A stretch of DNA of 22,316 bases from a virus: IMG/VR virus record IMGVR_UViG_3300048061_000347, positions 1 through 22,316 of that record, one strand, 5' to 3'. The notes beneath the pieces were generated by a model. That model ran no database searches, had not been told where the DNA came from, and saw only the letters and a program-made list of their open reading frames with translations. Positions 3,076 through 17,369 of the stretch are shown here, piece after piece (position 1 is the stretch's first letter; every line of letters starts with the position of its first letter). The translations under genes were made by a program, and so were the position numbers.

Positions 3076-3651
3076 ATGGGATTTAATGTAAATAACTATG
3101 CATTAGTTAAAGATCGTTTAGTGAGTGCTCACGACGAATTTCCTAAATGTCAAATACGTACTGAATTAGTAAACGTACAACCTATTAAAGACACAGCAAC
3201 AGGAGAAACATGCAATGAGTACATCATCAAAGCGATATTCACGCCAGAACCATTATCAGAACCAGAAGTATACTACACAGGATATGCGGCTGAAAGAGAT
3301 AATACTGGGTTTGTTAATAAGACGAGCGCTTTGGAAAATGGCGAAACGAGTGCGGTGGGTAGGGCCCTTGCATTTGCAGGTTTTGGCGTTAATCATTCAA
3401 TCTCTTCTCGTGAAGAAGTTGAGAACGCAAAAGCTAAACAAAAAGTCGTTAATCCAACTATTAAATCATTGGAAGAAATGGATGATTTAGCAGGCGAATG
3501 TCTTAAAAAGGAGCTTATGTCTAAAGAACAGCATATAGCTTATATGAAGAAACGTGGCACAGGTTACTATGATACGAAAGTAAAAGTAACAAGAGCTGTA
3601 TTACATTTTCAGGAACTTTTAACTAAAAAGGAACCTAAAGATGTCAAGTAA
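3076..3651 (+). CDS. Putative single-strand annealing protein (Rad52/Erf-like)
   Basis: A 191-residue protein. The N-terminal 110 residues form an alpha/beta region that ends in the glycine-rich block 'ENGETSAVGRALAFAGFG' (residues 87-104). This TSA-hGRALA-hxGhG block is typical of a phage family I associate with Rad52/Erf-type single-strand annealing proteins or their relatives. Proteins of this kind bind ssDNA and pair complementary strands during phage recombination and end repair. The C-terminal 80 residues are lysine/glutamate-rich and helical. Context supports the role: an SSB-like gene, a primase-helicase and a resolvase-type nuclease follow on the same strand. ATAAGGAGAAAAT precedes the ATG, and the gene is led by a 19-bp hairpin. 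Coding is near certain, the function moderately likely. Confidence 0.72.
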   Translation: MGFNVNNYALVKDRLVSAHDEFPKCQIRTELVNVQPIKDTATGETCNEYIIKAIFTPEPLSEPEVYYTGYAAERDNTGFVNKTSALENGETSAVGRALAFAGFGVNHSISSREEVENAKAKQKVVNPTIKSLEEMDDLAGECLKKELMSKEQHIAYMKKRGTGYYDTKVKVTRAVLHFQELLTKKEPKDVK

Positions 3652-3895
3652 AAAAATGCCACAAGAACACAGAATAAGTGGATTACTACCAGGTGAAACA
3701 CAATGGATCAATAATAATCACGGTAGATATTTACTTGTTCACGTACCTTTTGCAGCAGACGAAGAACGTTATGACTTTGAGTTTCCAGACTATGAATTAG
3801 TTATGGCAGCTGTTGACAAAGCTATAATGACTGAAATGGATGCTGTAAATGATGCAGTAGATGAACGCAATAGCAAATACCAAAAGGAGGACTAA
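3641..3895 (+). CDS. Small acidic hypothetical protein in the recombination block
   Basis: An 84-residue acidic protein overlapping the preceding gene by 11 bases and the next by one base. AAAAAGGAACC is the probable ribosome site. The N-terminus (about 1-45) looks like a beta-rich segment with 'GETQWINNNHGRYLLVHVPFAADEERYDFEFPDYE'. The rest is one helix with many Asp/Glu/Ala residues. It has no cysteine pairs and no membrane span. Because it is wedged between the annealing-protein and SSB-like genes, it may be a cofactor of either, but that rests only on position. Confidence 0.7.
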   Translation: MSSKKMPQEHRISGLLPGETQWINNNHGRYLLVHVPFAADEERYDFEFPDYELVMAAVDKAIMTEMDAVNDAVDERNSKYQKED

Positions 3896-4416
3896 TGGCT
3901 ATTACAGGTACTAAAATAAAAAGCAATACAAGCGGAGGTAACAAAAAATACTTTATCAACAAGTGTACAGTTACCGCAGCAGAACAGATCGAATCACAAT
4001 ATAGTGATACAACAGTTAAACTTGAGTTAACCGATGAAAGCAATGGTTACAAATATAGTTTATTTATGAATCAGAATTACGAAAAAGACACTAACGGTGT
4101 TGTATCTGATTTGAAATATCCTGATTTAGTAAACACATTGTTCTTAGCAGCAGGTAAGGATCTAAATATATCTGATACTGGTGACATCAATTTAGAAGAG
4201 TTAACAAATTCACAAATAGCTTGTTTAAGTTATCCGTCAACTGGAAAATATAAACGTGCTATATGGTCTACAGTTAGTTCTTGGAAAGATGAAACTCAAT
4301 TGGGTAAGGATTTTGAAGCTCAATTAGCAAAAGGTTATCCTAAAAATTACAGAAAAGAAGATAGTGCAGTTCAAGCACCAACAGAATCTGTAGATTTAGA
4401 TGACCTTCCATTCTAG
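3895..4416 (+). CDS. Single-stranded DNA-binding protein (SSB-like)
   Basis: A 173-residue protein. Residues 1 to about 115 are strand-rich and fit an OB-like fold with many Lys and aromatic residues. Residues about 145-165 are a low-complexity polar linker, and the protein ends in the acidic/hydrophobic tip 'DLDDLPF'. Bacterial SSBs end in DDDIPF, and this tip docks replication and repair enzymes, so the match at the extreme C-terminus is strong functional evidence. The core itself is not recognisable by eye as classical SSB, so it may be a divergent phage version. The start has an ideal AAAGGAGGAC site. It lies between the annealing protein and primase-helicase genes, where an SSB is expected. 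Confidence 0.78.
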   Translation: MAITGTKIKSNTSGGNKKYFINKCTVTAAEQIESQYSDTTVKLELTDESNGYKYSLFMNQNYEKDTNGVVSDLKYPDLVNTLFLAAGKDLNISDTGDINLEELTNSQIACLSYPSTGKYKRAIWSTVSSWKDETQLGKDFEAQLAKGYPKNYRKEDSAVQAPTESVDLDDLPF

Positions 4417-4733
4417 TGACTGCTAAAACAATACTGCTTAACTGGGTATCAGAACAAGCAGATAAATCTAGCAACAATACATTTTATTCATACGACATTG
4501 AACTTAATGTTCCATTATATGGAAAATTAAAATATGGTAAAATACATACTGCTAGTACATACTCTAGGCTATGGAGAGAATTGAGAGAAAGTCCTCAATT
4601 GTTCGAAAGTTTAGATATAATGTTAATGGAAGTATCACACACAAAACAGAAAAAGGTAAAAGGATGGATGGCAACGAACATGAAGAAATACGGAGGGATT
4701 CCAGAATCACTTCAGACTGCTATGTCGAAATAG
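4416..4733 (+). CDS. Hypothetical protein overlapping the primase-helicase start
   Basis: A 105-residue basic protein that starts at GTG on the last base of the previous stop (TAGTG). No Shine-Dalgarno is evident and translation is probably coupled to the SSB-like gene. It reads 'YSYDIELNVPLYGKLKYGKIHTASTYSRLWRELRESPQLFESLDIMLMEVSHTKQKKVKGW', a pattern suggesting a small winged-helix or alpha/beta domain. The end is a basic helix 'MATNMKKYGGIPESLQTAMSK'. Its last 70 bases are also read in another frame as the beginning of the primase-helicase. No family recognised. It could be a helicase-loading or DNA-binding accessory given its place; that is inference. Confidence 0.7.
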   Translation: MTAKTILLNWVSEQADKSSNNTFYSYDIELNVPLYGKLKYGKIHTASTYSRLWRELRESPQLFESLDIMLMEVSHTKQKKVKGWMATNMKKYGGIPESLQTAMSK

Positions 4734-6508
4734 TAAAAGATAGTATTTCTAATCGTAATCAAGTAGTAACTACAGAACAATATAAGAAAGCTGTGTTAGA
4801 TTACTCTTGGTCGAAAGAAATGTATCGTTCTTATTTTGTGTTTGATAAAAGTTTCGATAAACACGTAACTGAAACTGGAACTGTAAAAGGTTTTGATGGT
4901 TCATGTGCATTGGATTATATCATATTAGATGTAGACAAAGGTGAAATACCTAAAGATCAAATGATAGGATATATTCAAGCGTGTTTGTCTGAAATGTTCG
5001 ATAAAGGCGTAATGGAAGAAGACATTAACCTATGGTTTAGTGGTAACGGTTTTCATATAGAAATGAAAAATGTATTTGGATTGCAACAAAGTAAAACACT
5101 TCATGATAAGCTAAGGCTTACAATGAATAAACATTTTGACTTTGCAGACTCAATCTATGATAAAACGAGGATCATCAGAACTAAATGGTCGTTAAATCCA
5201 AAAACACAATTACATAAAATATGGATACCTTTATCACAAATAGGTGACATAACTTACAAAGATCTTGAATGTTATGCTTCTACAAGACAAAACTACTTAG
5301 AGTGGGTTAACAGTGATTCAGATAATTTCTTTGAAACGCTGCATAAAACACCTCAAGTAGAACCTTATCTTCAATCAATGGTTATTGCATCACCTACTAT
5401 TGTAACAAAACCTAACTCTAGTAAGAAGAGTTCAGACGTTACAAGCGTAGTGTCGTGTATGCAGCACATATTCAACGAAGGTCCACACATTGGAGCTAGA
5501 AACAACAAAATGATGCGTATGACAAGCACGTACAAACGTGCAGGTGTACCTTTTATTGTTGCTTTGAATGGTATGCATACTTGGAGTGACGGTCAAATGA
5601 GTGAAGAAGAAGTAAATAGAACTGTTAAAAATGTGTACGATGGTAATTATCAATATGGCTGCGATGACCACATCATGGCTGAGTATTGTGATACTAAATG
5701 TATTTACTATAAACGTAAAGACTATAAATTAGATATTAAGGGTGTTAATGAGTTAGAAGACTCATTAAGAGATTACCTTATAAATACCATGTCGCAAAAC
5801 TCTATTCAATTAGATAAAATATATGGATGTGATTCCTACAACTTTTCACCAGGAGAATTAGTAATATTTTCTGGTGATACAGGTTTAGGTAAAACTGCTT
5901 TTATACAAGATATAATAGTAAAAGCAAGACAACATACATTGTTTTTATCTTTAGAGATGAATGAACAGTTAATATTCAGGAGGTTTGGTCAAATAGCTGT
6001 CGGTAAAGATAAAGAATGGATTACTAATGAATACAAAAATAATCCTGAATTTACTCTAAAAGATAAGTTAGATCACGTGCAAGTTATGACCATTGCACCT
6101 CGAATAGACTCAATTAAGAAAGTAGTATCTGAGTACCAACCTAAAGTGTTAGTAGTAGATACTACAGATGAAGTACAAGTAGACTTTGTTAAAGGTGAAA
6201 TAGAAAAGCAAAATATAGTTATTGGTGCATTGAAACAAATTGCACAGAAAACAAATATAATTATTATTGCAATACATCACTTAAACAAATCTTCTGCTAG
6301 TAATAACGTAATCAATTTGCATTCGTTAAAAGGTTCATCAAATGTAGTACAAAAAGCAGATAAAGTAATACTTATCAAAGGTAATCGTGACGATGCAGTA
6401 CGTATAGTGAGTTCTGTTAAATCACGTGACGAAGGTAGGTTTGAAATGACTGCAGCATTTGATACCAATACAATGCAATTTAATCAAATAAGGAGTAATT
6501 ATGATTAA
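4664..6508 (+). CDS. Primase-helicase: AEP (PrimPol-type) primase fused to RecA-fold replicative helicase
   Basis: A bifunctional replisome enzyme of 614 residues from the ATG at 4664, which has AAGGTAAAAGG just before it. An in-frame ATG at 4571 would overlap the upstream gene by 163 bases. Residues about 80-190 carry the three archaeo-eukaryotic primase motifs: DVDKG (89-93), SGNGFHIEM (126-134, catalytic-type His131), and D162 followed by 'RIIRTKWSLNPKTQ' ending in a lysine-bearing strand. A middle segment (about 265-355) has 'GARNNKMMR' and a Cys/His cluster (C333, H336, C342, C346), reminiscent of PriCT-type linkers. The helicase half has Walker A GDTGLGKT (404-411), Walker B VLVVD (D499), the IAIHHLNK strand (536-543), and SVKSRDEGRFE with a candidate arginine finger near R588. 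T7 gp4 fills the same role with a zinc-TOPRIM primase, absent here. It would unwind the fork and prime lagging strands. Confidence 0.88.
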   Translation: MDGNEHEEIRRDSRITSDCYVEIVKDSISNRNQVVTTEQYKKAVLDYSWSKEMYRSYFVFDKSFDKHVTETGTVKGFDGSCALDYIILDVDKGEIPKDQMIGYIQACLSEMFDKGVMEEDINLWFSGNGFHIEMKNVFGLQQSKTLHDKLRLTMNKHFDFADSIYDKTRIIRTKWSLNPKTQLHKIWIPLSQIGDITYKDLECYASTRQNYLEWVNSDSDNFFETLHKTPQVEPYLQSMVIASPTIVTKPNSSKKSSDVTSVVSCMQHIFNEGPHIGARNNKMMRMTSTYKRAGVPFIVALNGMHTWSDGQMSEEEVNRTVKNVYDGNYQYGCDDHIMAEYCDTKCIYYKRKDYKLDIKGVNELEDSLRDYLINTMSQNSIQLDKIYGCDSYNFSPGELVIFSGDTGLGKTAFIQDIIVKARQHTLFLSLEMNEQLIFRRFGQIAVGKDKEWITNEYKNNPEFTLKDKLDHVQVMTIAPRIDSIKKVVSEYQPKVLVVDTTDEVQVDFVKGEIEKQNIVIGALKQIAQKTNIIIIAIHHLNKSSASNNVINLHSLKGSSNVVQKADKVILIKGNRDDAVRIVSSVKSRDEGRFEMTAAFDTNTMQFNQIRSNYD

Positions 6509-6773
6509 ACTAGATACATTAGTTAAACCAAGTTATAGTGATAAAAATAATATTCAGAAAGCACATTTAAGATTGTTAAAAGTCTTAAACTTTTCTGCAA
6601 GAATGGATAGCAATTTTGGTAATCACTTGTGGTTTGACGTACGTGTAGGACCTATGGAATTTTCCACAGGTTTTAGAATGTGGGATGAATCACCGCAAGC
6701 TGTAGAGAAATACAAGGAGGATTTTAACATCTTTGAGATGGATCAAAATCTTGCTACAAGTGACGCATCCTAA
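6501..6773 (+). CDS. Small hypothetical protein
   Basis: A 90-residue protein that starts 8 bases inside the end of the primase-helicase gene, with AGGAGTAATT as its ribosome site. It has an N-terminal helix with 'KAHLRLLKVLNFSARMDSNFG' and a central strand pair 'HLWFDVRVGPMEFSTGFRMWDESPQAVEKY'. The C-terminus is acidic. There are no cysteine pairs, membrane spans or recognised catalytic residues. It is located between the helicase and a resolvase-like nuclease and is probably translated with them. Family unknown. Confidence 0.7.
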   Translation: MIKLDTLVKPSYSDKNNIQKAHLRLLKVLNFSARMDSNFGNHLWFDVRVGPMEFSTGFRMWDESPQAVEKYKEDFNIFEMDQNLATSDAS

Positions 6774-7092
6774 TAAAATACGTGGTAACAATCTCGAACG
6801 TGAGATCGTGAATACAGCTAAAGACATGGGCCTTTCTGCAAAGAGGGCCTATGCTTCAGATGGTAGATCACTAGGTAAATCAGAAGTTGTTGACGTGATA
6901 GTCGAAGATACATGCATACAAGCAAAGCGAAGAAAGAAAGTTGCACAATGGCTGTATCCAGATTATCACGGTGACGATGTAGACGTTGTTGTTACACGTA
7001 TGGATAGAAAAGAATCTTTAGCTATAATACCACTAAAAAGATTCTTAAGATTATTACAAATTGAAAAGGAGAATCGTGATGACTTTGAGTAA
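6760..7092 (+). CDS. Holliday-junction resolvase/Mrr-like PD-(D/E)XK nuclease
   Basis: 110 residues if started at the GTG at 6760, which gives the N-terminus 'THPNKIRGNNLEREIV' expected for Hjc-like enzymes. A TTG at 6733 with AGGAGG 12 bases upstream is an alternative. The motifs follow the Hjc/Mrr order: RGNNLERE (E13), 'GLSAKRAYASDGRSLGKSEVVDVIV' with the metal-binding D45, and 'CIQAKRRKK' with Q54-x-K56. The Glu of the classical E-x-K is replaced by Gln, as in Mrr-type members (QxK), so it need not be inactive. It is short, near the size of archaeal Hjc. The likely role is cleaving branched recombination or replication intermediates before packaging, or degrading host DNA. It sits at the end of the replication block. 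Confidence 0.78.
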   Translation: MTHPNKIRGNNLEREIVNTAKDMGLSAKRAYASDGRSLGKSEVVDVIVEDTCIQAKRRKKVAQWLYPDYHGDDVDVVVTRMDRKESLAIIPLKRFLRLLQIEKENRDDFE

Positions 7093-7538: not shown

Positions 7539-10500
7539 TTATTCATCACTTAAATTTTCTAACATAATATCTCTATTGCGTTGCTCTCTTTCAACACGCT
7601 GACCATACCATTTCATGCTATTACGAGGTATACCAGTAGAATATTCCATCCAATAATTTGGTTTCTGTGTTGTCTTATAAACATCACGCATCAATCTACC
7701 ACCAGGTAAATATGTCCAAGCAGTATAATTCCAGAATGCTTCGTAGTTACCGTTAACTAAAGCATTAACATGAGGCATAATAAATCTTGCAGCAGGAGGT
7801 GTTACGATCTGTAACGGTGCCATAGCTTTGATAGGATATTGATTAAAGAATGCTCTTTCTCTAGTTTGTTCATCACCAAATAAAAACTCAGCTGTATCTT
7901 TAAACATATTCATAGGCGGCGATAAAGCATACTCAAATATACTGTAAGCAAATACACTAGCTAACGCCATAGTCATAGCATCATTAGCTATTTGTCTTTC
8001 AAATCTTTTAGTAGCTTCAAAGTTAGCGTGCCCTTCTACTGCCATCATATCTTCAAACATAGTTTTTCTACGTCTAATACTACTCCACATATAAGGTTGG
8101 AAACGTGTCATTACACGACCAAACGCAGTATTACTAAAGTTAGGTCTGTATGTAGCGTGATAGATAAACTGTGAACCTTCTACACCTTTTTTAGCAGTCT
8201 TCACTAAAAACTCGTCAGTTACTTTGATATTACCTTTTGTATCAGCGTATAATTCTCTAGCTTTTAAATAATGTGATAAAAACGCTTTACGTCTTAATAG
8301 TTTTTCAGATGCAGACATAAATACACTACCAACTTCCATGGCTGCAGCATCTACATTATATTTAGTAGCTAACTCTGTTATAGTTTCTTTAACAAAAGCA
8401 TCATTTTTTTCGTTAACTTCTTTAGAGTTCCCCCACAATTTGTTTTTCTTGGTATTTTGTGTAACTCTTTTTACAAGTTCTGATAAAAACTTTTTAACCT
8501 GAGCAGGCTCTTTAGCTTGTAGATAAGTTAATTCTTGTAACAAATTACCTTCCAACAATCCTAAACTATCTATCATCATGTGTACATCTTCCATAGATTT
8601 TAATTCTTTATCTTGATATGTTTTAGTTTTTGGATCGTATATCCTAAACTTTTTACCAGCAAATACTTCGTTTATTAAATAATCTTCTCTAAATGAATTA
8701 ACAAAATGTGTAAAACCAGTGTCTGTTATTACGTTTTGATAACCACCATATACATTTGTTATTGCAGCTTTAGGGTGAAACAGTAAACTAAATACTTCAA
8801 ATTTACCTTCTAAGTCACTCATATACTGAGCCATATCTACCATAGCTTTATGCCTTAGTATTGGATCTTCAGGTAATGATTGAAACATTTGTTTTTCTTT
8901 GCCTAACAATGATTTAGTAGCTTTACCATAGACTTTGTTAATATTGCCTTCAATTTTTAACATAGTATTACCAACAGATTCATCGCTAAACCATTGTCTA
9001 GGAGTAAAGTTAATCTTTAATTTATCTATGTTATCTTTATCAATAAGTAAATTTAAGTTTTCTGTTTGTGACTGTTCCATCCATTTAGTAAAATCTTTCT
9101 TTACTTCAGGACCAATTGTTGTTACAAAAAATTCATCACGTTTTTCTTTGGTAACACCTTTTAAATCTTTACCATGTTTTTTTATTAACTCACTTACTAA
9201 CTTCTTTTTCATAGCACGTTGTTCGGTGTAAGTTGGCAATGCTGCTGCTTCCATATCTAACAATAATTTCTTTTGAACATTGTTTAGTTTTCCATATTTC
9301 CACGATTGATCATATCCAGAATCTTGCCATTCTTTTAATAACACGTAATCTTTTTTATTAAAACCATGTACTTCTATATTTCTTGTAGAAGGTTGTCCCA
9401 TATAACCTTTAGAAAAATCTAATAAAGCAGAATGCCATTGTTCAATAACATCAGACATAGTTTCATTTTTTCTACCTTGTTCTAAAAATTTATCTAAATA
9501 AATTCTAGTATATAATGCACTAATGTTTTGAGTCAAACCTCTTGACATACTATCCATGTATTCTAAAGGAACATTACCATCAGTTCTAAAGAAAGGCAAT
9601 GCTCTTTCTGTTCTAGAACGTGCGTGTGTAGACATACCTAAACCAGCATATACTGTTTTGCCTCTTCTAGTAGGTACTTGATTTAAGGTGTCAGCAGCAT
9701 CCTGATCTACATTAGGATTTTCATACTTATTAGTTTTTAAAATTTTATTTTCTAATTGTTGATATTCAGCAAATCTAGCATCATCTAAAGTCGCTTCACC
9801 ATTCATTACATCCTCTTTCATTTTAGGATCTAGTAGCTGATCAACTTTTTTAGACATGATACGTTCTTTTTCAGCAGGTAAATATTCTTCGACAATTTTC
9901 TTTTTATTATCTTTAACTTCTAAAGAACCCATGTAAGGATAAAAACGAGCAGATTCATTTTGTTCTTTAAATTTACCGACTTCTAATTGCCTTGCATCTA
10001 ATTTTGATTGTTGAGATTCTAATTCTTTTCTAATTTGATCTCCTACTGTGAACTTTGTTTGTCCTTTAACTAATGTTTTATCTAACAATTTCCAGTCAAG
10101 TTCTCCGCTTTTATTTAAATACTGATTGTATTTATCGTGTATATTTTGACGAACATTAAAAGCATAATTTAAAAACTTAACATCGTCTAAATGAAAATGG
10201 TTACGCAATATTTCAGAACCAGAAACAGTGTCTTGTTTAATTCTAACAGACTTATCAAAAGCCATTAATCTTGAAGGACTAATCATTCCATTAGCATTAA
10301 AAAACATTTCCATTAAACGTTGTTGATAAAACAAAGGATGACTTGGTGCATATTTTTTAGCAGGACTATATACATTTTTATATATAGTTTCTCCAAATGC
10401 TTTTTCAATATTTTTATAATTACTTTCTATAAATTGTTTTAAAGCAAAATCCATTATTGGTTGTATAACTTGATTACGTATTACATCTGTGTATTTATTA

Positions 10501-13500
10501 GCATCTACAAACACCTGGTCACCTTGTTTATCAGTGTAATATAATTTTTCTGATATTTTACTAAGTTTTTTTTCTGCTACATCTAAACGTTCTTGTAGTT
10601 CAATGCGTTCTTCAGCTAACGTATTATTCTTTTTTGGTCCTAATTTATCTGGACCTAATACGTGTCTTAACACTGCAACTTCCCATAATATATCTTGATT
10701 AGCTGTATACACTTTTTGTTTTGTGTTTAATATTTTTTTATTAAATCCTACAAAATCTACATTAAACTTTTTAAGCTGACTTGCTATACTATGATTTTCA
10801 TATATATTTTCAGCTATAGTTTTTAACGTAGCAGTTGGAACTAAAATACCATATTCATCCATTTGTCTAGTTTTAGGATTATATTTAACACCTCTATCTA
10901 ATTGAAACCTTTTTTCAAAAGGTGAAATTAACTGGTCTAATCTTTGATAAATACCTAACACTTGATCTATGCCTTTAGGACTTCTTAAGTTTGCATCTAT
11001 AGGAAACATAAAATTAATTTTGTCTGTAATAACAGAAGATAAACTATCCATAGGTATTTTTTGTATAAGAGGATTAGCTTTTATATCTTTCTCTAGCTGC
11101 CCTATATTTTTATAAGGTTTAATTACTTTAGTTTTTTTATTATAACCATATACAATATTGTCTTTATCTTTTAATATCTTTCCTTGTGTTTGATCTGATA
11201 GCTTAGTTATAGAACCTTCATTAGCATTAGCCCACTCCATTACATACTTTCTATAATCTATTCTTGTTTTTTTAAACAATTCTAAATCAGACATCATTTT
11301 AACAAAAATGTCTTGTTCTTTAGCATATTCTGCAAACGTTTTTAAGGGAACCATATCGGTCATATCAACGTATAAGTCTTTACGTGCTTGATTAATTAAC
11401 TCTTTATTTCTACGAATAGCGTCAAATGCATCATTAGGACCGTATTGATTCTTCATGTGTTTTACAAAATACTTTAACCTCAAGCCATCTACATCTTGAA
11501 TTAAATCTATCTCTCTATTTTTTCCTTGAAAAAAATTAGAATACAAAGAAGATATATTATACAATATACCAGGATTACCATTTGCTATTTGATATTTAAT
11601 AACATCACGCAAGTCATCTAGATCTTTTTTAATACCTTCTGTTTGATTGCTAGTTAATTTTTTCTTTGTATCAATTAATTTATCTAATTTCTTAGGATCT
11701 GTAAGAACGTCAATATCAATTAAATCTGGAACAACTTGTTTAGTTCTGTTGACTGCTGGTTTAGCAGTGTCTACTACTACAGGTTCAGATAGACTTGATG
11801 TAGATGGCGGTGTAATATCCTCACTCACGTAATCAATCAAATTGTCAAAATCAAAATCTTTTTTAAATTGCTCTATTCTAGCGTCTTTTTCTGCTACTGC
11901 TAGTTCTAGTACCTTATAACGTTCTCTAGCCATATACTGCTTATTACGGGCCTTTATGGACCATGTCTGTTCTAAGTCAGGTAAAGAACCTACAAATTCT
12001 CTTTGTAATGCACCTCTTTGCTCGTATAATTTGTCTAAAGTAGATTGTTTAGAAAATTCTTCTAATCCTTTAGTAAGTTTTGTTTCCTGAGCTTTTAATT
12101 TAAGAAGTTCTTTTATATCTCTATTAACGCTTGTCAAGAAATCAAATCGTTTTTTTCCTCTAAATCCTGTAAAGTTTAAATCTATAACAGGGTTAGCTAT
12201 ATAAAATACATCAAATAAATCTTCTACTAACATCTTACCTTGTTTAGTCAAAGGTTTTCCTACTGCATTTCTAGCTGTAGTTAATGTTTCTAATTGTTCT
12301 TTTATAGATTCTTTAGTAAAGTATATTTGATCTCCGTAGCTTCTAACGTTTTGTTTTTTATACCACTGTTTATTATTATCAAATGATTGATAAATTTTAT
12401 TACGTTGTTCAAATGTAGTTTCTATTACGTCTACAATAAACTTATCAACAGCACTAGGGTTCATTTCTAATACCTCTACAGCATACTCTTTAAACGCTTG
12501 TGCTTTTTTCAAAGCATTGGACAAGTCTACAATACCATTAATTTTATTCCATAAAAAAGGAGGATAATCTTTAATGGTATTCATTTCTTTTCCATCAATA
12601 CCTTCCATAAACCATTTGTCAAATTCTCTTAAGTTTGCTTTTTTAAATAAAGGATGATCTTTCATAACCTTAGACAAATCTTTTAATACAGGAATAATAG
12701 CATCTTTGTCGATTGCATTGTAAGGATTAATTTCTAATTTTAATCCATTAATATTTTCACCAACCATTCTCAAATAACCAGTAGTACCTTCAGTCATATC
12801 TAAATATTTTTGAGATACTACGTTAGGTTCTAATGGAGCTTCGTCTTTACGTACTTTACTAAATACAAGTTTATACATATCACGCAATACAATACGATCT
12901 TCTGCTTCTAATAAATTGTCTTTATATTTTCCTCTTAGCTTGGCTGTAGCAGTAGACGGTAAATCAACATCAACTAATTTATTAGCATCTATAAATGTAC
13001 TTTGTAAAACATTTTGATCTATAATTAATTGTTTCCAAATTTTAGGTAACTCACTTGTTTGCATCTCGGTAACTTTACCGCTTCCGTCTTCTACCATTAA
13101 TTGTTTTCTTAAATCAAATTCTTGTTTAGCTATTTGAAATTGATTAGTAATATATCCAACACTGTCTTTACCTATTGCACTAAACAATCCATTACCAAGC
13201 TTAGCATCTATATCAATCATATTAGCTAACTGCTGCTTTCTTGTTTCTTTTTGTGGAAACTTTGCATTGGCTAATTCTTTAGCAATTTTAGCATCACTTA
13301 AAGAAATCATAGTTCCATCTTCTTTTAATAATTGATTTTGTATTTCAGGTCTAGCATATACCTTAGTTATTTCTTTAGGCATACCCCAAAATACATGAGC
13401 CGAGTCAATGTCTTTGTCTGCTCCGTTCATATTAAAGTCGTTAACTTCGTTGGTTATAATAGATATACCTTTTCTACCTTTAACAAATCCTACAAAATTA

Positions 13501-16500
13501 CCAATACGAACACCACTGTTACTAACCATTGGAGAACGTATATACATAACATTGTCTAATGTTTCTTTTAATTGTTTAGTAGTATCACTGTTTTTATCTA
13601 AATCATATTCTTTTTCAAACTTATCAAATACCTTACCTAACGTACTTTTCTTTTGAGTGGTAGGATCGGTAACAGGAATAATACGTGCACCTTCATGTAA
13701 TAAAAATTCATTATCAGCTAAACCTTTTTTAGCAGAAGAGTATTTAAAGTTTGTAGTTCGTATAATTACATCATACAGACCTAACTTAGAACTAAAAGAT
13801 TCTTCTACTACAGGTCTAGTTAATCTTTTAAAAGCATAGTCTGATATTTTTTCGTTTATAAACTCTATAACACCTGGTCTTAAAAATGCTCCTGGTTCAA
13901 AATCTGTAGAAATTAAATAGTCTTCTATTAATTGTTTGTTATATGTTTCATTACCATATTCTGCAAAGTCTTGTTCTATTCTTTTATCACGTTCAGAACT
14001 TCTACCATCAGTAAATAATTTACGTAATATACTTCTGGCTGTAATAGACGTAGGGTTTTCATTTAATATCTGGTCTATTAATCTAATATCTATTTTATCT
14101 AAAGATACTTTATCACCGAGAGGTTGATTAGACTTAAGCAACTGACTCACTTCTTTGCTTACAACAGCATCTCCTCTTGCAGATGCATCTATAATTTCTT
14201 GCCATTTATTCCAAAAAATCTTTCCATCTGTGCTAGTAGGATCCATGTCAATAGTATTTAAATTAGAAGTAACCTGTCTTAACAATTTTAATTTTTCTAA
14301 TTTATTAAAATTCTCATAGACATCTAAATTTATGTAATTATCTTCTAGTTTAGATTTCCATGTAACGTCTGTTTTACCTGGTACGTCTGGTCTTTTTGCT
14401 CCACTAATTTCTTTTACTGAAGTATCATAATGTAAGTAATCTATTTTTTTACCTGCTTCTGTTTTATCTAACAAAGCTTCCCACTTAGGGTCCATTCTAA
14501 ATGTAGCAGTTTTAATAATAGTTGTACCACGTTTATTCCCGTTAGTAAACTCACCAGGTCTGTGTATATGTATAGTTTTTATAACACCAGTTTCAGGATC
14601 TAATCCATACGCTTTTGCTAACCTGTCAAATTTTTCACCTCGTAACATACTAGCACCATCAGTACCTGAGTTAAATGCTTCCATTTCAGGCCCCATATTT
14701 TTAATACTACCAGGCAAATCTTTTATCAAAGCGTGTGTATATTCATCTTTAATGTATTGACTATCTATAGGTACTTCAATACCAGACATATGCTTAGTAT
14801 ACTTTTGCATTTTTGTAACATCAGTATAAGGTTCTGTTTTAAAATAAGTAGGCAATGTATCTATAATGTCCTGTGCTGTGTATTTAGCATCTATTAAATT
14901 CATTTCTTTCATACGCCAAATAACAAATCCAACATTAGATTTATATTTTTTAGCATCAGTGCCGCCTAATTCTTTTCTAATAGTTCTATCTATTTTTTTT
15001 AATTCTTTGTCAGATATATAATTAGTTTCATTTTTTCTACTGCTCCAAGGAAATTGTCTTACTTGCAATCTACCAGTGTCACTAACTGCTGCGTGTATAT
15101 ACAATCCTTCTTTTTCTTCTAAATTATTTCTTAGTTGGTCTATTTGTTTTTTAGACATATTTCTTACAGCACTAATAGGATCTTTAGTGTCTTTAGAAAA
15201 TGCAAATATATCTATAGATAAAGGTGATACATTTTTAATTTTAGCACCTGGTTTATATTTACCTTCTACTGCATCGTAATATCGTTGTGATACTACAGTA
15301 GTTAAATAGTCTATATCTAGATGTAATTGTTTATCATCTTTAGCATATATTTTATTTAAACGACTACCTTGGTCTGATTTAGTACCAGACTTTTTACCGC
15401 CTATAGGTTTGTTGTATATGTCTACTTCTGGTGCTTCTTCCTCAAATACGGGCTCTTCTGTTTTACGTTTTTTTAATCTACCCTTACCCTCTTCTGGCAC
15501 TAAATATATTCTAGATATTTTAAACTTATCTAAATGTTTATATTTATGTATAGCTTGAACTAAATCCATTTTTTGTTCTTCACTAACTTTAATTTTAAAT
15601 TTACCTTCTACTTCTTTAATAAAGTTATCAGGAGTAAAATTTGTGTCAATAGCTAACTTCTTAAACATTTGATGCAATTCTTGTGGATCTAAATCCTTAG
15701 AAGTTTTGTCACCAACTTTTTTAATATCTACAAATATGTTTTTTAGTGTACGTTGTTTTGGTAGATATTCACTAGCAATAGATGTATCTTGTTCTATGTG
15801 TTTAACTTCTTTGTCCATCTCCATAGAACTAAATTCAAATTCTTTTTCTTCTACTCTACGTTCTACTTCATCTATATTAAAAGTATCTTCGTGTTTTCTT
15901 TCTGCTTTTTCAGCTGCTTCATATAATTTTTCTAATATAGTTTCTCTAGTTTTATTATCTGTTCTAGCTCTTGCTTCCATTTCAGGCGTAATAAAACCTT
16001 GTTCTTTTAAATCTTTATATTCAGGAGCTAACGCTACAATAATGTCATTGTAGTTATTAACAACATAATCCATCTGTTGACGTTGTATATCTTTTAAATA
16101 CCTGCTCCAATATGCTTGATATTCAGGAGTTTCTGCTTGATACCACGGTTGTTCAGTAAGCCACTTACGTGCTTCTTTCATTTTAAAATCTCTAGGTATT
16201 ACTTTATCAGAACTAAATATATCTTTAGTAGCTCTATTTTCAAATGCAGCTCTACTATTTACACTAAAGAATACAGCCATTAATGTTTCATATATCTGGT
16301 CTTCTAAAGGCATATCGTGCAGTTTAGCAGTAGTAGTACCATACGCTGCACCTGCTGTACCTTTCATAAGAAAGTTTATAGTTTCAAATTGATCTCTACG
16401 ATTAGGTTGTTCTTTTAATGCTTTAGCAAATCCTCTAACTACTTTTTCTCCAGCAGTTCTAACTCCAACATTTTTACTAGCTAACATTCTACCTATGTTT

Positions 16501-17369
16501 GCATATTCACCTATACCTCCAAATATACCCCCTGCAATAGCACCTTGTACTGCTGCTTGTCCCATGCCCTGTATACCTTGTTCTCTAGCAGAAGCACCTA
16601 ATAATAATCCTAAGTGTACAGATTGATTAACAATATTGTCACGAGTAGCAGCATCCATAAATCTATTTTTAAATACACCTTTGTGTATAAATTCTGCTGC
16701 TTTAATATTATTATCTTTTAAAAAACTTGTACTTTGTTTTTGTACAAAGTTAGCAACTATACCAGGTACAGACTGCATACCGTATAATTTTTCACCTGTC
16801 TTAATATCTACACCAATAGGTTGTGGACTACGTAATGCTTTACCTCCAGGTAGTTTAGTAGTAACGTCGTGCATAGCTCTAGCTACTTTATTGTTAGAAT
16901 ATTGTAAAGATTCTCCTACGCTTTCTAAACGATCAGCTACTGCTTCAAATTGTTTAACACCTCTAGCTTTAGCTTGTCTACGCATTCCTCTAGCTACTAA
17001 TGCTGTTGCAGCACCACCTCCAGATAATGCTTGTACTACAACACCTGGTGCTAGTCCTACAAGATGAGATAATGAGTTTGCTATTTTTTCGGTAGATGTA
17101 TCAGGTTCATCTGCAAAACCAAAGGTTGTAAAACCTTCTAATAGTCCAGATGTAATCTGTGCAAGAACTCCGTCTGTTTGACCTTGTCTTCCATCCGTAA
17201 GGGGTAAGCCTGCATCAACTAGTTTTGTTTCCATATAACGCAAACTACGTGCGTCAAATTGCTTAGGTATGCGGTCATAAAACTTTTTTAGACCCAATGC
17301 GTACTGCATTTCATCTAAATGTCCTGCATCAAAAGCAGACTCTAGTATTTGTATTCTTCTATCTAACAT
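7539..17369 (-). CDS. Giant presumed internal virion/ejection protein, 3276 aa
   Basis: A single unbroken 3276-residue protein, about 44% of the window. It is last in a virion-gene run and follows two proteins arranged like T7 gp14 and gp15, so by position it corresponds to gp16, the largest ejection protein, but is about 2.5 times longer. Residues about 98-127 and 248-296 are Gly/Ala-rich hydrophobic segments, and 3128-3150 is another ('ALASVFAYSIFEYALSPP'). Pro/acidic or Ser/Thr linkers near residues 635-665 and 1845-1880 divide it into roughly three modules. The C-terminal part with 'LLFHPKAAITNVYGGYQN' and 'NTAFGRVMTRFQPYMWSS' resembles, from memory, C-terminal regions of very large phage polyvalent/ejection proteins. 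No lysozyme, transglycosylase, protease or polymerase motif was recognised. No Shine-Dalgarno precedes the ATG, which is 1 base past the upstream stop. Probably carried in the capsid and injected. Confidence 0.85.
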   Translation of the reverse strand: MLDRRIQILESAFDAGHLDEMQYALGLKKFYDRIPKQFDARSLRYMETKLVDAGLPLTDGRQGQTDGVLAQITSGLLEGFTTFGFADEPDTSTEKIANSLSHLVGLAPGVVVQALSGGGAATALVARGMRRQAKARGVKQFEAVADRLESVGESLQYSNNKVARAMHDVTTKLPGGKALRSPQPIGVDIKTGEKLYGMQSVPGIVANFVQKQSTSFLKDNNIKAAEFIHKGVFKNRFMDAATRDNIVNQSVHLGLLLGASAREQGIQGMGQAAVQGAIAGGIFGGIGEYANIGRMLASKNVGVRTAGEKVVRGFAKALKEQPNRRDQFETINFLMKGTAGAAYGTTTAKLHDMPLEDQIYETLMAVFFSVNSRAAFENRATKDIFSSDKVIPRDFKMKEARKWLTEQPWYQAETPEYQAYWSRYLKDIQRQQMDYVVNNYNDIIVALAPEYKDLKEQGFITPEMEARARTDNKTRETILEKLYEAAEKAERKHEDTFNIDEVERRVEEKEFEFSSMEMDKEVKHIEQDTSIASEYLPKQRTLKNIFVDIKKVGDKTSKDLDPQELHQMFKKLAIDTNFTPDNFIKEVEGKFKIKVSEEQKMDLVQAIHKYKHLDKFKISRIYLVPEEGKGRLKKRKTEEPVFEEEAPEVDIYNKPIGGKKSGTKSDQGSRLNKIYAKDDKQLHLDIDYLTTVVSQRYYDAVEGKYKPGAKIKNVSPLSIDIFAFSKDTKDPISAVRNMSKKQIDQLRNNLEEKEGLYIHAAVSDTGRLQVRQFPWSSRKNETNYISDKELKKIDRTIRKELGGTDAKKYKSNVGFVIWRMKEMNLIDAKYTAQDIIDTLPTYFKTEPYTDVTKMQKYTKHMSGIEVPIDSQYIKDEYTHALIKDLPGSIKNMGPEMEAFNSGTDGASMLRGEKFDRLAKAYGLDPETGVIKTIHIHRPGEFTNGNKRGTTIIKTATFRMDPKWEALLDKTEAGKKIDYLHYDTSVKEISGAKRPDVPGKTDVTWKSKLEDNYINLDVYENFNKLEKLKLLRQVTSNLNTIDMDPTSTDGKIFWNKWQEIIDASARGDAVVSKEVSQLLKSNQPLGDKVSLDKIDIRLIDQILNENPTSITARSILRKLFTDGRSSERDKRIEQDFAEYGNETYNKQLIEDYLISTDFEPGAFLRPGVIEFINEKISDYAFKRLTRPVVEESFSSKLGLYDVIIRTTNFKYSSAKKGLADNEFLLHEGARIIPVTDPTTQKKSTLGKVFDKFEKEYDLDKNSDTTKQLKETLDNVMYIRSPMVSNSGVRIGNFVGFVKGRKGISIITNEVNDFNMNGADKDIDSAHVFWGMPKEITKVYARPEIQNQLLKEDGTMISLSDAKIAKELANAKFPQKETRKQQLANMIDIDAKLGNGLFSAIGKDSVGYITNQFQIAKQEFDLRKQLMVEDGSGKVTEMQTSELPKIWKQLIIDQNVLQSTFIDANKLVDVDLPSTATAKLRGKYKDNLLEAEDRIVLRDMYKLVFSKVRKDEAPLEPNVVSQKYLDMTEGTTGYLRMVGENINGLKLEINPYNAIDKDAIIPVLKDLSKVMKDHPLFKKANLREFDKWFMEGIDGKEMNTIKDYPPFLWNKINGIVDLSNALKKAQAFKEYAVEVLEMNPSAVDKFIVDVIETTFEQRNKIYQSFDNNKQWYKKQNVRSYGDQIYFTKESIKEQLETLTTARNAVGKPLTKQGKMLVEDLFDVFYIANPVIDLNFTGFRGKKRFDFLTSVNRDIKELLKLKAQETKLTKGLEEFSKQSTLDKLYEQRGALQREFVGSLPDLEQTWSIKARNKQYMARERYKVLELAVAEKDARIEQFKKDFDFDNLIDYVSEDITPPSTSSLSEPVVVDTAKPAVNRTKQVVPDLIDIDVLTDPKKLDKLIDTKKKLTSNQTEGIKKDLDDLRDVIKYQIANGNPGILYNISSLYSNFFQGKNREIDLIQDVDGLRLKYFVKHMKNQYGPNDAFDAIRRNKELINQARKDLYVDMTDMVPLKTFAEYAKEQDIFVKMMSDLELFKKTRIDYRKYVMEWANANEGSITKLSDQTQGKILKDKDNIVYGYNKKTKVIKPYKNIGQLEKDIKANPLIQKIPMDSLSSVITDKINFMFPIDANLRSPKGIDQVLGIYQRLDQLISPFEKRFQLDRGVKYNPKTRQMDEYGILVPTATLKTIAENIYENHSIASQLKKFNVDFVGFNKKILNTKQKVYTANQDILWEVAVLRHVLGPDKLGPKKNNTLAEERIELQERLDVAEKKLSKISEKLYYTDKQGDQVFVDANKYTDVIRNQVIQPIMDFALKQFIESNYKNIEKAFGETIYKNVYSPAKKYAPSHPLFYQQRLMEMFFNANGMISPSRLMAFDKSVRIKQDTVSGSEILRNHFHLDDVKFLNYAFNVRQNIHDKYNQYLNKSGELDWKLLDKTLVKGQTKFTVGDQIRKELESQQSKLDARQLEVGKFKEQNESARFYPYMGSLEVKDNKKKIVEEYLPAEKERIMSKKVDQLLDPKMKEDVMNGEATLDDARFAEYQQLENKILKTNKYENPNVDQDAADTLNQVPTRRGKTVYAGLGMSTHARSRTERALPFFRTDGNVPLEYMDSMSRGLTQNISALYTRIYLDKFLEQGRKNETMSDVIEQWHSALLDFSKGYMGQPSTRNIEVHGFNKKDYVLLKEWQDSGYDQSWKYGKLNNVQKKLLLDMEAAALPTYTEQRAMKKKLVSELIKKHGKDLKGVTKEKRDEFFVTTIGPEVKKDFTKWMEQSQTENLNLLIDKDNIDKLKINFTPRQWFSDESVGNTMLKIEGNINKVYGKATKSLLGKEKQMFQSLPEDPILRHKAMVDMAQYMSDLEGKFEVFSLLFHPKAAITNVYGGYQNVITDTGFTHFVNSFREDYLINEVFAGKKFRIYDPKTKTYQDKELKSMEDVHMMIDSLGLLEGNLLQELTYLQAKEPAQVKKFLSELVKRVTQNTKKNKLWGNSKEVNEKNDAFVKETITELATKYNVDAAAMEVGSVFMSASEKLLRRKAFLSHYLKARELYADTKGNIKVTDEFLVKTAKKGVEGSQFIYHATYRPNFSNTAFGRVMTRFQPYMWSSIRRRKTMFEDMMAVEGHANFEATKRFERQIANDAMTMALASVFAYSIFEYALSPPMNMFKDTAEFLFGDEQTRERAFFNQYPIKAMAPLQIVTPPAARFIMPHVNALVNGNYEAFWNYTAWTYLPGGRLMRDVYKTTQKPNYWMEYSTGIPRNSMKWYGQRVEREQRNRDIMLENLSDE

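Follow-up and report, generated by a model that had tools for sequence, protein, structure and literature searches.

The locus

The window, i.e., the whole stretch of DNA that was analysed, is a virus record of 22,316 bases. A replication cassette and several small genes point rightward. The leftward genes code for a lysozyme-like protein, for putative internal virion proteins and for a single protein of 3,276 aa. The latter (7539-17369, minus strand) is without significant Pfam match, has a counterpart of >3,700 aa in the related locus L089 and is itself probably an internal virion protein. The replication cassette comprises the following genes:

3076-3651, plus strand: 191-aa protein (phrog_11717, unknown function), in 75 of 81 loci at a near-fixed offset
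3895-4416, plus strand: SSB-like protein, 173 aa, C-terminus ...DLDDLPF, in 77 of 81 loci
4416-4733, plus strand: 105-aa protein, in 78 of 81 loci, overlapping the primase-helicase start by 70 nt
4664-6508, plus strand: archaeo-eukaryotic primase (AEP), PriL-like four-cysteine domain and DnaB-core helicase, 614 aa, stop included
6733-7092, plus strand: Holliday-junction-resolvase-like protein (phrog_244, E 3e-7), in 81 of 81 loci

The primase-helicase gene was found where the initial annotation had placed it. Its stop ends at 6508, and its start at 4664 is common to the closest relatives (L003, L005 and L016). All motifs quoted for it are present, i.e., DVDKG at residues 89-93, SGNGFHIEM at 126-134, D166, RIIR at 169-172, SLNPK at 176-180, GDTGLGKT at 404-411 and VLVVD at 495-499. 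They do not occur by chance, since the key residues are identical in 46 out of 46 aligned relatives, whose overall identity goes down to 48%. In the primase half these are D89, D91, S126, G127, G129, H131, D162, D166, R169, R172, N178 and K180; in the helicase half they are G404, D405, G409 and K410 of the P-loop, D499, H539, K586 and R588.

The protein is a single chain consisting of a PriS-like domain, a domain resembling the C-terminal domain (CTD) of PriL, and a DnaB core. The order of the domains, the folds of the two outer ones, the conservation of active-site residues and cysteines, and the synteny are established computationally. The middle domain (residues 253-350) and the linker helix that follows it (residues 361-379) were absent from the initial annotation.

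The primase half

The features of the first domain are:

4721-5383, plus strand: PriS-like AEP catalytic domain, residues 20-240 (AF2 pLDDT ~90; Foldseek and VIA matches)
4928-4936, plus strand: motif I, DxD (D89, D91), probable metal ligands, invariant in 46/46
5039-5056, plus strand: motif II, S-G-x-G-x-H (S126-H131), invariant in 46/46, aligning with FSGNRGFH of Sulfolobus PriS (1zt2)
5147-5203, plus strand: motif III with D162, R169, R172, N178 and K180, invariant in 46/46, from the PriS alignment

The fold was searched with an AF2 model of residues 19-366, from which the helicase had been removed. The 35 best Foldseek matches were AEPs throughout, with modest E-values of 0.006 and up. Archaeal PriS (P. 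abyssi/P. furiosus), human PrimPol, CAPP, LigD-Pol, the PrimPol of cyanophage S-2L and human PriS came on top; Prim-PolC was also among the matches. VIA listed AEPs in all of its 50 rows, with Z of 9-12 over 160-200 residues. The predicted fold thus bears out the claim that this half is an AEP. D89, D91 and H131, the residues whose variation had been set beforehand as a refuting test, are constant in the 46 relatives. A TOPRIM or zinc-finger primase found no support, as there was no Pfam zinc-finger or Toprim match and the fold search led to AEPs; absence from a hit list is, of course, no formal exclusion.

Motifs I-III are in register with those of Sulfolobus PriS, which is also the best PDB match of a profile made of the AEP and four-cysteine domains (E 9.4e-5). 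In the relative from Bacillus phage vB_BboS-125, PF01896 is matched above the cut-off with an E of 3.9e-10. The D...RIIR...S-NPK pattern described earlier is indeed there, and its D166 is invariant, but the alignment with PriS suggests D162, rather than D166, as the likely third catalytic carboxylate. N178 takes the position of the His in the PriS motif S-x-H-x-K, a residue that the relatives in Moorella, Bacillus and Thermus phages keep. This deviation was counted against the primosome reading given below.

The middle domain and its cysteines

Only four cysteine columns are fully conserved in the whole protein (46/46), and all of them lie in the middle domain:

5420-5713, plus strand: PriL-CTD-like domain, residues 253-350, four invariant Cys (46/46), profile matches via relatives
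5456-5458, plus strand: C265, invariant in 46/46
5660-5662, plus strand: C333, invariant in 46/46
5687-5689, plus strand: C342, invariant in 46/46
5699-5701, plus strand: C346, invariant in 46/46

The profile of the window family's own middle domain (A6) found nothing in the PDB. PF04104 (PriL) was not among the Pfam matches of the window family or its consensus, which showed just a weak PriCT_1. Two AF2 predictions of the domain were of low confidence (pLDDT ~35-80), so a PriL-like fold rests on sequence here. As the family profile by itself misses PriL and the fold is not confidently modelled, the assignment runs via unfused relatives.

These relatives are phage primases. By tblastn the window protein matches one of a Moorella phage with an E of 1e-11 and one of a Bacillus phage with an E of 3e-10; the latter alignment spans residues 121 to 353 of the window protein. 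When the middle domain was compared by hhalign with the domain after the AEP in the Moorella and Bacillus phage primases, 98% was obtained. In all three groups of phages, those of Moorella, Bacillus and Thermus, it is this four-cysteine domain that comes after the AEP. A profile of the wider family was built from seven sequences, namely six phage proteins plus the consensus of the window family. With an E limit of 10 it retrieved 13 PDB sequences, of which the ten best are DNA primase large subunits, i.e., PriL. Its top match, Sulfolobus PriL, has an E of 0.0042 with all four cysteines aligned. The spacing of the cysteines is C-x67-C-x8-C-x3-C in the window protein versus C-x63-C-x8-C-x3-C in Sulfolobus PriL (5of3_B). 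PF04104 itself is matched in four unfused or MCM-fused relatives (E 0.001-0.013), and the NCBIfam PriL model in the protein of Thermus phage P23-45 (E 1.4e-4). Judged from these alignments, the middle domain is homologous to the C-terminal iron-sulphur domain of PriL.

In PriL the corresponding cysteines bind a 4Fe-4S cluster that is required for priming (PMC4434180). By analogy, the four cysteines of the window protein probably carry a metal centre of the 4Fe-4S type. PriCT domains were already considered homologous to the C-terminal domain of PriL (PMC5862659); in contrast to them, the phage domain retains the cysteines. The cysteines might instead bind structural zinc, the domain being a PriCT-like, template-binding knuckle. 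In most AEPs a structural zinc sits close to the active site (PMC4434180), the AEP domain of the window family lacks any fully conserved Cys in the 46 relatives, and the weak Pfam match of the middle domain is to PriCT_1. Yet the four cysteines are in register with those of PriL and share the C-x8-C-x3-C spacing of the Sulfolobus protein. We consider zinc the less likely and prefer the iron-sulphur centre.

The helicase half

Residues 355-614, the third domain, comprise a linker helix and a RecA core of the DnaB/T7-gp4 type:

5744-5800, plus strand: linker helix (residues 361-379), within the part that VIA matches to T7 gp4 (residue 264 onwards)
5831-6493, plus strand: DnaB/T7-gp4-like RecA-fold helicase core, residues 390-610 (PF03796; VIA)
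5873-5896, plus strand: Walker A, GDTGLGKT (G404, D405, G409 and K410 invariant in 46/46)
6146-6160, plus strand: Walker B, VLVVD (D499 invariant in 46/46)
6419-6427, plus strand: K586-S-R588, candidate trans-acting Lys/Arg finger, invariant in 46/46

The RecA-fold, DnaB-like nature of this half had been proposed from its motifs and is confirmed. DnaB_C (PF03796) scores 42.3 bits versus a cut-off of 27, and VIA relates the core to DnaB, T4 gp41, T7 gp4 and Twinkle with Z of 20-25. Of the profiles proposed for checking, DnaB_C thus came out above its cut-off, PriCT_1 as a weak match. K586 and R588 are candidate finger residues by analogy with DnaB and T7 gp4. The DnaB N-terminal domain had no Pfam match at E up to 10, and residues 1-350 are taken up by the AEP and the four-cysteine domain. 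Since that domain is absent and a primase stands in its place, the protein is to be called a DnaB-core fusion, not a DnaB.

Distribution and gene neighbourhood

Relatives were found at ~80 loci with 48-100% identity, in uncultured viral contigs only. A marine origin is inferred from the character of the sequence and from the relatives, not from metadata. No such fusion was detected among 50,697 records of isolated phages, where tblastn yielded two matches, both ~24% identical and both unfused. Plasmids contained no match to the window protein; in the contigs of bacterial and archaeal genomes, a MAG of Sulfurovum gave the only match, which was weak and confined to the helicase. Scanning viral contigs with the single primases of the Moorella or Bacillus phage revealed no relatives.

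In the relatives the cassette runs in the order 191-aa gene, SSB-like gene, 105-aa gene, primase-helicase and Hjc-like resolvase. Each neighbour occurs at 75-81 of the 81 loci, without exception on the same strand. The overlap of the conserved 105-aa gene with the start of the primase-helicase by 70 nt suggests translational coupling. The SSB-like protein had no strong Pfam or PHROG match. Its tail (DDLPF), conserved in the relatives, resembles that of bacterial SSBs, and the 25 commonest C-terminal tails all end in PF. A strong Shine-Dalgarno sequence lies upstream of its gene. An archaeal virus, an idea raised by the PriS/PriL domains and the Hjc-like gene, is less likely given the DnaB core, the bacterial-SSB-like tail and the Shine-Dalgarno sequence.

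Seven contigs of relatives (G001-G007, comprising, e.g., L086-L094) are 44-54 kb long, and all contain the primase-helicase, the SSB-like protein and the resolvase. The ends of G001 overlap by 369 bp, as in a complete genome. In G004 (L093:8925-13193) the replication cassette has as neighbours ThiF/E1-like and JAB/MPN-like genes, recognised by eye only, and a gene for 835 aa; together they may be a ubiquitin-like conjugation cluster. One IMG/VR contig of 89,793 bp carries two copies of the cassette (L017 and L057, which share 71% and 53% identity with the window) and is either a chimera or two joined genomes.

Unfused and otherwise fused relatives

The same AEP plus four-cysteine module occurs in the Thermus phages P23-45, TSP4 and phiFa, in Moorella phage MTATph1 and in Bacillus phage KLEB27-3, each time with a DnaB-like gene nearby. 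There, primase and helicase are separate genes, whereas they are fused in the window family. In the Thermus phages the DnaB gene, an archaeal-type Holliday junction resolvase gene and the AEP gene lie separately within ~4 kb. In MTATph1 (L026:5827-7776) the AEP gene is followed in the same frame by the DnaB-core gene, with one stop codon and 57 nt between them, and a single tblastn alignment of the window protein crosses both genes. Such an arrangement would be expected of an unfused ancestor of the window gene. In Bacillus phage vB_BboS-125 (L096:3974-7057) the module is again attached to a replicative helicase, which is, however, an MCM (PF00493, E 3.4e-13) and not a DnaB. One module that stands free in the vicinity of DnaB in some phages and is joined to MCM or DnaB in others shows the swapping of replisome parts.

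The presumable function

The 614-aa protein is, in all likelihood, the phage's own single-polypeptide primosome, a T7-gp4-like machine working with AEP chemistry. The DnaB-like core would encircle the lagging-strand template as a (probably hexameric) ring, travelling 5' to 3' at the expense of NTP. The PriS-like domain, tethered by the linker helix, would make short primers on the emerging strand. The four-cysteine domain would act like the C-terminal domain of PriL: it would carry a metal centre, probably 4Fe-4S, and would hold both template and 5' initiating nucleotide in place for the active site of the PriS-like domain. SSB and junction resolvase would be provided by the same cassette. Since none of the genes was recognised as that of a DNA polymerase, the host replicase is the most likely recipient of the primers. 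Only tentatively would we go further and regard the protein as a redox-active single-chain primosome, in which PriS and a 4Fe-4S PriL ride on a bacterial-type hexameric helicase and prime, perhaps also copy, the phage DNA.

The lack of a polymerase can also be read differently. Family A, B or PolIII-alpha (C) enzymes had no match in the seven contigs of 44-54 kb, the self-overlapping G001 included; this result stands without the PF03175 search, whose control gave no signal. The AEP might accordingly be a primase-polymerase that copies much of the phage genome, the fork being opened by the fused helicase and bulk synthesis proceeding without the host polymerase. Genome copying by a primase-polymerase has reportedly been proposed for phage NrS-1. 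The encoded SSB-like protein would fit, and an AEP that polymerises dNTPs is known in PolpTN2 (PMC5862659). Many phages, however, rely on the replicase of their host, short primers are the usual product of PriS-like enzymes that have a PriL-type domain, and in its C-terminal tip the SSB-like protein resembles those bacterial SSBs by which host proteins are recruited. Self-sufficient copying is rather improbable, and priming for the host replicase is preferred. Still less probable is a recombination or repair enzyme made of a RadA-like helicase and a repriming AEP, for which RadA/Sms among the best sequence matches of the helicase domain and the neighbouring junction resolvase and 191-aa gene of unknown function may be quoted. 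But in relatives the same AEP lies near the phage's DnaB-like helicase gene, the scanned proteins included no second recognisable primase or helicase, and VIA aligns both the linker-helix region and the core with DnaB and T7 gp4 (Z 20-25).

Comparison with known systems

Like the window protein, T7 gp4 and Twinkle combine primase, linker helix and a RecA-fold ring helicase core in the same order and in one chain; the VIA alignment with helicases of this type covers residues 355-611. The primases differ: that of T7 gp4 consists of a zinc finger and TOPRIM, that of the window protein of an AEP and the PriL-like four-cysteine domain.

The fusion had been considered as possibly little described. 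This is correct only in part, for AEPs fused to DnaB-family helicases are known from the PrimQH family of the PrimPol-PV1 supergroup (PMC5862659), and in phage 0305phi8-36 the AEP and DnaB genes are adjacent (PMC2147016); the four-cysteine domain between the halves, however, is not described there. PrimQH proteins unite AEP, PriCT and, in some members, the helicase in a single chain, as does the window protein (PMC5862659). They have PriCT-1/2 or a zinc domain where the window protein has the PriL-like one, and most of them end in a winged helix, which is missing in the window protein with its stop at the helicase core (residue 614). PolpTN2 of the Thermococcus plasmid pTN2, a PriS-PriL fusion that was called unique (PMC4538821), combines a PriS-like domain with a PriL-like 4Fe-4S domain in a single chain, to which the first two domains of the window protein correspond (PMC5862659, PMC4538821). 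It lacks a helicase, has an extra PriCT-1 and winged helix, and carries Gln for His in motif II, where the window family has H131 in 46/46. GP55 of lactococcal phage 1706 is a phage AEP-helicase fusion, too, yet with an SF3 helicase, a fused PolB and no PriL/HBD domain (PMC12205980). A chain made of PriS-like domain, PriL-CTD-like domain and DnaB core was not described in the literature searched, which did not cover Iyer 2005 and Kazlauskas 2016.

Overall, the protein is a variant of the phage primase-helicases. What goes beyond the fusions in the literature searched is the PriL-CTD-like four-cysteine domain between AEP and DnaB core in the same chain. As a T7-gp4-like solution with an unrelated primase, it could serve to test whether ring-tethered priming works with AEP chemistry. 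Moreover, both halves of a eukaryotic-type primase and a helicase are contained in 614 residues, and the role of the PriL iron-sulphur domain might thereby become accessible to study without separate subunits.
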